A stretch of 64,000 nt of DNA from Pontibacter cellulosilyticus (GTDB taxonomy: Bacteria; Bacteroidota; Bacteroidia; Cytophagales; Hymenobacteraceae). Positions 5,590-9,217 of this stretch are shown in pieces (positions within the stretch are counted from its first letter, which is position 1; every line of letters starts with the position of its first letter). A program made the translations under genes and the position numbers. The stretch covers positions 884,413 to 948,412 of the forward strand of contig NZ_JACRVF010000001.1 of the NCBI RefSeq assembly GCF_014306105.1, written 5' to 3'. A model generated the notes under the pieces. The model did no database searches, was not told where the DNA came from, and saw only the letters and a list, made by a program, of their open reading frames with translations.

Positions 5590-5852
5590 TACCAGTACCA
5601 ACTTCTCACTTTTAAGCATCTAACCCTTTATTTTTAAGGCTGACAAGGATATGGCTCCGTTCCCATACCTGTATCCGATCAGAAATTATACTTTACACCA
5701 ACCAGTTGATACCCTGCACTTAAAAATCCTACTATCATTGAAGTGATTAAATCCGAATAAAACATTCCTGCCCTATCACAGTAAAATACCGACTACTGCC
5801 AAAAGCTTATTTGAAAGGAAAGGCTGGCGGTTATCATCTGTTTAATTCTGAA

Positions 5853-8396
5853 ATGGCAACAACCAAACAAGATACTTCTCCAAAAGCCTTTGCCGGATTT
5901 GTAACGGTACGCGGCGCACGTGAGCATAACCTTAAAAACGTAAACCTTACTATACCCCGCGACGCCTTGGTCGTGTTTACTGGCGTATCCGGCTCGGGTA
6001 AATCTTCGCTGGCATTTGGAACCCTGTACGCAGAGGCGCAGCGCAGGTACCTTGAGTCAGTTTCGCCATATGCCAGAAGGCTTTTTCACCAGATGGCGGT
6101 GCCCGATGTAGACGCCATTGAAGGGTTGCCCCCAGCCGTTGCGCTTCAGCAGCAACGCGGAACACCTACCACACGCTCTTCAGTGGGAAGTGTTACTACT
6201 CTGTCAAACTTGTTACGCATGCTATACTCCCGTGCCGGCGATTATCCTAAGGGCCAGAATATAATTTATGCCGAAGCTTTTTCGCCGAACACCGCAGAAG
6301 GGGCCTGCCCTACCTGTCATGGTCTGGGCCGCATTTATGAAGTAACAGAGCAATCAATGGTACCCGACGATTCGTTAACTATACGGGAACGTGCCATTGC
6401 TGCCTGGCCCACTGCCTGGGGCGGGCAAAACCAGCGCGACATACTGGTAACACTTGGCTTTGACGTGGACAAGCCTTGGCGCGACCTGCCAAAAAAAGAC
6501 CGGCACTGGATCCTTTTTACCGACGAGCAGCCTGTAGTGCCGGTTTACCCAGGCTATACACCCGAGCAAACGCAGCGCGCCCTCAAACGCAAAGAAGAGC
6601 CCAATTACATGGGTACGTTTACCAGCGCCCGTCGACACGTGTTCCATACGTTTGCCAACACCAACAGCCCCCTTATGAAAAAACGGGTGATGCAATATAT
6701 GCTGAGCACTGACTGTCCCACCTGTCAGGGCAAGCGGCTTAGGCCAGAATCCTTGTCAGTAAAGTTTGCGGGGTATGATATTACAGAGCTTTCGCGGTTA
6801 CCGCTAAAGCGGGTTGCTTGTATACTTAAGCCGTTTGCCGAGGGCACTGCCACAGGACACGAGAAGCAGGATGCCGAACACCCGGAACAGGCCATTGTAG
6901 CACAGCGCATTGCCGAAGACCTCTGTGCCCGTATCCATGTATTGCTTGACCTTGGACTGGGTTATTTATCCCTAGAGCGAAGCACGCCTACCTTATCGCC
7001 GGGTGAACTGCAACGGATAAGGCTAGCCACCCAGTTATACTCTCACCTGTTCGGGGTAGTGTATGTGCTTGATGAGCCATCTGCCGGACTGCATCCATCT
7101 GACACACTTTCGCTACTAAATGCACTGGAAGGTTTAAAGAAAGCAGGCAATTCCCTTTTCATAGTAGAGCATAACCTCGATGTTATCCGGCAGGCAGACT
7201 GGCTAGTGGATGTTGGCCCGGATGCTGGGGAAAAAGGAGGCAAGATATTATATAGCGGTCCGCCGGAAGGCTTGCAGGAAGTGACTAAATCTAAAACAGC
7301 AACATATCTTTTTGGTCGCGAATCGATACCGGTCCGTATACCTCGCACACCAACCGGATGGCTGAGACTAAGTGGCGTAACCCGCAACAACCTGCATAAC
7401 CTGGATGCAGCTTTTCCGCTAGGTGTTTTTACTACAGTTACCGGTGTGTCAGGATCAGGCAAATCAAGCCTGGTGAGCCAAGTGTTGGTAGAACTGGTAG
7501 CGGAACACCTGGGCCATGTTATACTTGCAGAGGAAGAAGAGGGAGACGAACTGGAACGCGCTGCGCCTGTACAAACTGGCGGGCATATAACCGAAGGCAT
7601 TGAAAGTATAAAGAGGCTGGTGCGAGTAGATCAGAAACCAATCGGTAGGACCCCACGATCGAACATGGCTACCTATACCGGGCTTTTTGACCATGTGCGT
7701 AAACTTTTTGCAGCCTCCCCTATGGCAAAGAAACGCAGGTATGATGCGGGGCGCTTTTCATTTAACGTAGCCAAAGGCCGTTGCGAGAACTGCCAGGGCG
7801 AGGGTTTTGTAATGGTAGAGCTGCTTTTTCTGCCAAGCGTATACGCCCCCTGCCCTGTTTGCCACGGTGCACGCTACAACGCCAAAACCTTAGAAGTAAC
7901 TTACCGCGACAAGAACATTGCCGAGGTGCTGGATATGACAGTAGATACTGCTTGGGAGTTTTTTGACGAGGAGCCACAGGTACACCGCGCCCTCACGGTA
8001 CTGCGTGAAGTTGGATTGGGATACCTTCGCCTGGGCCAGCCTGCAACCGAACTATCCGGTGGCGAAGCCCAGCGCATCAAGCTTGCCTCGGAACTGCAGC
8101 GCACACAACGCGGTAACACGCTATACATTCTGGATGAACCCACCACCGGCCTCCACCCTGCCGACGTAGAAAAGCTGTTGGCACAACTGGAGAACCTGGT
8201 AGAAGCCGGCAACACGGTTATCGTGGTAGAGCATACTATGCGGGTTGTAGCCGGCAGCGATTGGGTGATTGATATAGGTCCGGGGGCTGGAGAGGAAGGC
8301 GGAAAAGTGGTAGTGGCAGGCACTCCGTCAGAAGTTGCCCAGTCAAAAAATAGTAAAACAGCTCCGTTCCTAAAAAGCCTGTTGCACGAAGTATAA
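5853..8396 (+). CDS. UvrA-like ABC ATPase lacking the UvrB-binding region (UvrA2 type)
   Basis: An 847-residue double-ABC ATPase of the UvrA family. Walker A GVSGSGKSSLAFGTLYAEA begins near residue 43, and a second GVSGSGKSSLVSQ lies near 535. Zinc-type CxxC pairs occur as CPTCHGLG, CPTCQGKR, CENCQGEG and CPVCHGAR. Signatures are LSPGELQRIRLA (first, with Pro for the usual Gly) and LSGGEAQRIKLA (second), with Walker B VLDEPSAGLHP and ILDEPTTGLHP. Between the first ABC half and CPTCHGLG only about 35 residues are present, so the roughly 130-residue UvrB-binding insertion of canonical UvrA is missing. Such short paralogues are often called UvrA2 and linked to tolerance of DNA-binding drugs. I prefer the ATG at 5853 to a TTG 42 bases upstream. 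Confidence 0.88.
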   Translation: MATTKQDTSPKAFAGFVTVRGAREHNLKNVNLTIPRDALVVFTGVSGSGKSSLAFGTLYAEAQRRYLESVSPYARRLFHQMAVPDVDAIEGLPPAVALQQQRGTPTTRSSVGSVTTLSNLLRMLYSRAGDYPKGQNIIYAEAFSPNTAEGACPTCHGLGRIYEVTEQSMVPDDSLTIRERAIAAWPTAWGGQNQRDILVTLGFDVDKPWRDLPKKDRHWILFTDEQPVVPVYPGYTPEQTQRALKRKEEPNYMGTFTSARRHVFHTFANTNSPLMKKRVMQYMLSTDCPTCQGKRLRPESLSVKFAGYDITELSRLPLKRVACILKPFAEGTATGHEKQDAEHPEQAIVAQRIAEDLCARIHVLLDLGLGYLSLERSTPTLSPGELQRIRLATQLYSHLFGVVYVLDEPSAGLHPSDTLSLLNALEGLKKAGNSLFIVEHNLDVIRQADWLVDVGPDAGEKGGKILYSGPPEGLQEVTKSKTATYLFGRESIPVRIPRTPTGWLRLSGVTRNNLHNLDAAFPLGVFTTVTGVSGSGKSSLVSQVLVELVAEHLGHVILAEEEEGDELERAAPVQTGGHITEGIESIKRLVRVDQKPIGRTPRSNMATYTGLFDHVRKLFAASPMAKKRRYDAGRFSFNVAKGRCENCQGEGFVMVELLFLPSVYAPCPVCHGARYNAKTLEVTYRDKNIAEVLDMTVDTAWEFFDEEPQVHRALTVLREVGLGYLRLGQPATELSGGEAQRIKLASELQRTQRGNTLYILDEPTTGLHPADVEKLLAQLENLVEAGNTVIVVEHTMRVVAGSDWVIDIGPGAGEEGGKVVVAGTPSEVAQSKNSKTAPFLKSLLHEV

Positions 8397-8488: not shown

Positions 8489-9217
8489 ATGAACCGTTTC
8501 CTATCAAAAGAAAAAGCTGAAGAGCTACTGCATACGATCAGGTCATCATCAATTCCGCATGTCTATGATCCGGAGAAGCACAGGCTGGCGCTGTTAGACG
8601 AAGCCGGTAATGAGCAGTTGTATTTTCGATTACCACTTACCATACCATCCCCTACCGCAACGCAAGCAGAAGCACAGGTAAACTACGTTATCCTGTTAAT
8701 ACAGTCCGGCAACTGCGCGATCGGCTATTTTGAAGATGGCATAAACCTCGACCACAAAGTGTTCCGTTCGTACATGGTGCGAAAAAAGCAGGGAAAAAGC
8801 CAGATAAAGTACCTTAAAACCAAAGGCAAGTCAAGGGCTGGATCGCGGGTAAGGCTCGGTGAAACGGTAGAATTTTTCGAGAACATTAATGGCCGGTTGC
8901 AGGAGTATTTTGAGGAGCATTACATCCACCGGATCGCTATCAGCTGTTCCAAAACGCTTATTCCCTACCTTTTTAACTCAAAAGTGGAGACGCCCTTTAG
9001 CAAAAACGATCCGCGCCTCTATAAAATACCGAAGCACATACACACGCCTATTTACGAGGTGATGCTGAACGCAAATAAATTCCTGATGAAAGGAGAGGTA
9101 ATTTATGATGAGGCGCATCAGGAATACGTTGAAAAGCTGCTCCCAGTATCAGAACTCTACATGCCAGATGAAGACGAAGAAGACAGTTGGGACGAAGCAG
9201 AACCAGACTGGGAATAA
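8489..9217 (+). CDS. VLRF1-type (Vms1/ANKZF1-like) release factor / peptidyl-tRNA hydrolase candidate
   Basis: A 242-residue acidic-tailed protein. The central block at about residues 92-170 reads YMVRKKQGKSQ, then a basic loop (KTKGKSRAGSRVRLGE), then a helix and strand ending IHRIAISCSK. This matches the layout of the VLRF1 domain of eukaryotic Vms1/ANKZF1: an R(R/K)KQGxSQ loop that plays the role of the release-factor GGQ, followed by a basic loop with SAG/SRAG and a conserved arginine. Gln105 is the equivalent of the Vms1 catalytic-loop Gln. In eukaryotes the family cleaves peptidyl-tRNA on stalled large ribosomal subunits; bacterial members are predicted only. The C-terminus is very acidic (PDEDEEDSWDEAEPDWE). 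The ATG at 8489 follows a TTG at 8480 that would add three residues. Single gene; no RqcH partner nearby. Confidence 0.65.
   Translation: MNRFLSKEKAEELLHTIRSSSIPHVYDPEKHRLALLDEAGNEQLYFRLPLTIPSPTATQAEAQVNYVILLIQSGNCAIGYFEDGINLDHKVFRSYMVRKKQGKSQIKYLKTKGKSRAGSRVRLGETVEFFENINGRLQEYFEEHYIHRIAISCSKTLIPYLFNSKVETPFSKNDPRLYKIPKHIHTPIYEVMLNANKFLMKGEVIYDEAHQEYVEKLLPVSELYMPDEDEEDSWDEAEPDWE

Follow-up and report, generated by a model that had tools for sequence, protein, structure and literature searches.

A bVLRF1-family protein, a predicted release factor with a Vms1-like predicted fold, in Pontibacter cellulosilyticus, a bacterium that also encodes an RqcH-type protein

The window, a stretch of 64,000 nucleotides from the genome of Pontibacter cellulosilyticus, carries a gene for a member of the Bacteroidetes VLRF1 release factor family, bVLRF1, and the product is probably a catalytically competent, glutamine-dependent factor of Vms1 type that would free the growing peptide from the 50S-peptidyl-tRNA complexes left after splitting. 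The family itself was already named in 2019 and the protein is a further member of it. The main interest lies in the residence of an RqcH-type protein in the same genome and in a recurring acidic tail that ends in [DE]W. Where an RqcH-type protein occurs together with a Vms1 homologue, there is a natural opportunity to test whether bacteria have a dedicated terminator of ribosome-associated quality control (RQC), and a host that carries both is a good test bed because such a terminator was, as of a 2024 paper, not known in bacteria (Pth can serve in B. subtilis; PMC11317155). Since PMC6514570 proposes that eukaryotic Vms1 derives from bVLRF-1, what this family does also matters for the question of how the RQC of eukaryotes came together.

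The gene and its family

The gene and its parts, all within the window, are:

8489..9217, + strand: bVLRF1 gene, 242 aa (PF18826, E 3.7e-29); ATG at 8489, stop codon at 9215-9217
8489..8668, + strand: N-terminal extension, residues 1-60, a helix and a small beta unit (AlphaFold2 pLDDT 90-97; Vms1 chains align from model residue 5)
8684..9100, + strand: core with VLRF1 / eRF1-middle-domain-like RNase H fold, residues 66-204 (the Pfam stretch is 66-204; the matches to eRF1, aRF1, Pelota and Balon span about 61-201)
8768..8863, + strand: predicted catalytic loop, residues 94-125, R-K-K-Q-G-K-S-Q and then K-G-K-S-R-A-G-S-R-V-R-L (pLDDT about 50 within a confident model; the most conserved stretch of the family)
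8801..8803, + strand: predicted catalytic Gln105, invariant in relatives and paired with the Gln of Vms1 R-R-K-Q-G-G-S-Q
9161..9214, + strand: disordered acidic tail MPDEDEEDSWDEAEPDWE with a near-terminal Trp (pLDDT 55-65; the acidic stretch with Trp recurs in relatives)

The initial annotation had read 8489-9217 as protein-coding, and a complete gene of 242 codons does lie there on the + strand; it is present as a single copy in the genome. The mechanical open reading frame opens upstream of the ATG, at TTG 8480, but the ATG is the better start because relatives begin MNRF or MNRL. Two motifs picked out earlier, YMVRKKQGKSQ and SRAGSRVRLGE, correspond to residues 95-105 and 115-125.

The only Pfam-A family to match is PF18826 (102 bits against a gathering cut-off of 27 bits), whose profile is covered from position 1 to 142 of 145. 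By this profile match the protein belongs to bVLRF1, far above chance, which bears out its identification as a VLRF1 protein. NCBIfam was tried as a second source of identity and discarded, its sole offering being a sub-threshold chance match. A phmmer search of solved chains found only yeast Vms1 entries, at an E of about 0.008 that is weak alone, with RKKQGKSQ lying over RRKQGGSQ. The counterpart of Gln105 we take to be Vms1 Gln295.

Relatives were confirmed by tblastn in genome contigs, 146 in all, and the best 80 of these were used; they come mostly from Pontibacter, Rufibacter, Cyclobacteriaceae-type genera, Roseivirga and Fulvivirga. Conservation of Gln105 had been named as a check on the initial annotation, and this residue of K-Q-G-K-S-Q is invariant in 70 out of 70 aligned relatives. 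In the 45 closer ones Gly102, Ser104 and Gln105 are all invariant, as is K-G-K-S-R-A-G-S-R, with the exception of T111 before it. Divergent relatives found by HMM search, down to about 31% identity, still have Gln105, Gly102 and the G-K-S and G-S-R of the loop without change, and in them the basic loop K-G-K-S-x-x-G-S-R-x-R-L as a whole is invariant or nearly so. The residue preceding the Gln is S or A, or F in two close sequences (L085, L087).

Burroughs and Aravind named the bVLRF-1 family in 2019 and defined its GxuQ motif, u being a tiny residue; in their account the prokaryotic proteins stand alone and are found irrespective of whether other RQC components are present, and the bacterial and eukaryotic members have an N-terminal extension in common (PMC6514570). 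The window protein is identical in kind in its core: besides the HMM match it has G-K-S-Q as its form of the motif, a short N-terminal extension, neither a stop-codon-recognition nor a Pelota domain, a stand-alone gene and a Bacteroidota host. That bacterial VLRF1 families have been 'proposed', as the initial annotation put it, understates their standing, as a 2019 description (PMC6514570) and a Pfam model exist. Experimental work on bVLRF1 was not found in a search of the openly accessible literature, in which the name VLRF1 occurred only in the 2019 paper and in a soybean paper on another subject.

Predicted structure

The AlphaFold2 model built on the alignment (mean pLDDT 86.7, pTM 0.81) has a Vms1-like fold with a flexible basic loop, residues 94-125 and the tail being disordered. 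Foldseek ranks Vms1 first (5whg, E 6.5e-6, then 6r84), with Balon and eRF1 after. The VIA-align scores run from Vms1 6r84 (Z 11.6, rmsd 4.2, 165 aligned), 6r87 (11.5), 5whg (10.7) and 6r86 (10.7) to eRF1/aRF1 (9-10.5), Pelota (9.4) and Balon (8.9), though some of these values are less than 1 apart and are to be read as tied. TM-scores of the model to Vms1 are modest, 0.42-0.45. What sets Vms1 apart from the other fold matches, beyond the near-tied Z values, is coverage of the N-terminal extension, which only the Vms1 alignments reach into (from model residue 5-7 onward), in agreement with the shared extension described in PMC6514570. The suggested comparison with Vms1 therefore comes out for the VLRF1/eRF1 domain-2 fold, with Vms1 ahead of eRF1.

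The likeness to Vms1/ANKZF1 (eVLRF-1) takes in the fold, including the N-terminal extension, and the K-Q-G-x-S-Q loop. It does not extend to the Rei1 zinc finger, ankyrin repeats and VIM, for which 242 aa leave no room in the bacterial protein. Balon/baeRF-1 and Dom34/Pelota share the eRF1-superfamily core fold, but they mostly lack the catalytic Gln that is invariant here. ArfB is likewise a single-gene, Gln-dependent rescue factor, but it has an unrelated fold and its own separate gene in this host.

The acidic C-terminal tail

The strongly acidic C-terminus seen at the outset is plain: D or E make up 11 of the final 18 residues, and the terminus is D-W-E. Five or more acidic residues among the final 12, combined with a W among the final 3, are found in 41 of 81 sequences (the best 80 relatives and the window protein), versus 1 of 1100 neighbouring ORFs. 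Among acidic-tailed sequences, 42 of 64 have W in one of the last two positions, while shuffling of the last 25 residues over 10,000 rounds gave a mean of 4.7 and a maximum of 14, a comparison in which the relatives are not independent. The variants NDEDW, GDVIEW, EDENW, EEEDW and DEMEW are found behind unalignable linkers in clades that are deeply separated, and a quick tree implies at least nine changes of the motif, which is absent from Roseivirga, Fulvivirga and others.

This recurrence of [DE]W is apparently a feature not described before. The accessible text of PMC6514570 mentions neither an acidic tail nor co-occurrence with NFACT, and the word 'acidic' is absent from its main text. The simplest reading of the tail sequences is that they form a short linear docking motif. 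AlphaFold2 models of the window protein and of one divergent relative leave the tail undocked at pLDDT about 55-74, which counts neither for nor against its folding back onto the basic loop.

Other rescue systems and the company of NFACT

The host encodes tmRNA and SmpB, an ArfB of 136 aa with GGQ and a basic tail, Pth, and two SMR proteins, one of them in a MutS2-sized frame of 803 aa. It also encodes an RqcH-type protein of 523 aa with NFACT_N and NFACT-R domains, which among solved structures matches B. subtilis RqcH best (E 1.1e-25):

L115:3337-4908, about 1.634-1.636 Mb of the host contig: NFACT gene, about 0.74 Mb from bVLRF1 on the same contig

In this protein the NFACT-R match is clear and the NFACT_N half scores weakly, the N-terminal half looking divergent in the lineage. 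RqcH activity of the protein is accordingly no more than likely. With tmRNA, SmpB, ArfB, SMR proteins, Pth and NFACT all in the host, there is no sign that bVLRF1 replaces or bypasses them, and the suggestion of a rescue 'independent of tmRNA and RqcH' is unsupported. A role as substitute for a missing tmRNA or ArfB was considered and rejected, as almost every genome of the order has tmRNA and the host has ArfB.

In the sample of the host order, Cytophagales, bVLRF1 was found in 34 of 148 genomes, and 32 of these 34 have NFACT_N, versus 85 of the 114 others (Fisher p 0.015, a value that ignores relatedness and is partly driven by reduced genomes). The two exceptions, G356 (the source of locus L118) and G378, have neither NFACT_N nor NFACT-R at a detectable level. 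Across the phylum sample bVLRF1 occurs in 4 of 247 genomes, all within Cytophagales and all four NFACT-positive. Elsewhere in the same class the sampled genomes gave only three weak NFACT matches and at least 20 had none; in other classes of the phylum NFACT is common without bVLRF1. bVLRF1 is thus mostly, though not strictly, inside the RqcH-bearing set. RqcH can do without bVLRF1, as the widespread occurrence of NFACT in genomes lacking it indicates, and the two exceptional genomes indicate that bVLRF1 is not strictly dependent on RqcH. The pattern weakens independence from RqcH, and does not thereby prove coupling.

Mechanism and alternatives

In the preferred account, release by a Gln-dependent, Vms1-type factor, MutS2 or some other factor would split the ribosome, and bVLRF1 would bind in the A site of the 50S subunit on which peptidyl-tRNA is left. 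The G-K-S-Q loop would then be placed in the peptidyl-transferase centre, and the nascent chain would be freed by ester hydrolysis or by a cut at the 3′ end of the tRNA. Both hydrolysis and 3′-CCA cleavage have been reported for Vms1. More speculatively, bVLRF1 may bring RqcH-driven tailing to an end, a step for which Pth serves in other bacteria, and the acidic [DE]W tail may dock on a partner. Taken furthest, this would give some Cytophagales-type bacteria an RQC in which a dedicated RqcH-bVLRF1 pair parallels NEMF-Vms1, beside Pth or replacing it, and in which the tail, in a VIM-like role, is the motif that docks on a conserved partner. We regard that extension as tentative and rather unlikely. 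Points against the preferred account are the presence of Pth in the host, the lack of an operon with ribosome or RQC genes among 81 loci, the modest TM-scores, the wide occurrence of NFACT without bVLRF1 and the two bVLRF1 genomes without detectable NFACT.

A possible reading, if not one to be expected, is that of the initial annotation: the release factor works outside RQC, clearing stalled 70S or 50S complexes without RqcH as a back-up of one component. The two bVLRF1 genomes without detectable NFACT and the lack of an RQC operon speak for such a back-up, which PMC6514570 suggests for prokaryotic VLRF-1, termed stand-alone; but NFACT is in 32 of 34 bVLRF1 genomes, and with tmRNA and often ArfB already there the need for another back-up is not evident. 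Should the protein bind the A site without catalysis, it would serve in hibernation or surveillance in the manner of Balon/baeRF-1 or Dom34, whose fold it also matches (Balon Z 8.9, Pelota Z 9.4). This is improbable, as Vms1 outranks Balon, no conserved neighbour of any kind occurs in the 81 loci, and the Gln and loop are invariant, whereas inactive families lose the catalytic Gln and vary in loop length according to PMC6514570. Activity off the ribosome on some other RNA, for instance free tRNA ends, would suit the commonness of RNase H-like folds (unrelated ones, RuvC and kinases, match the model at Z 7-8) and the tRNA 3′-end cut reported for Vms1; with the Vms1 and eRF1 matches above those unrelated folds and a loop motif like that of release factors, it is very improbable.

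Local setting and distribution

Clustering of 1181 ORFs from the 81 loci gave no family present in more than 19 of them, and operon linkage of bVLRF1 with RqcH/RqcP or ribosome genes was not found there. An operon-based assignment of function was dropped for want of a conserved neighbour, and this fits the earlier description of a plain single-gene version. Upstream on the same strand lies an ORF of 861 aa for a UvrA-like ABC ATPase (window 5811-8396), probably an unrelated neighbour since no more than 11 of the 81 loci have a relative of it close to bVLRF1. Origin from a mobile element was also considered and set aside, there being no match in plasmids or phages. Within the host family, nine sampled genomes of a sister genus, g2 (G072, G166, G287 and six more), are NFACT-positive and lack bVLRF1, a pattern that would reflect either loss there or gain elsewhere within one family.
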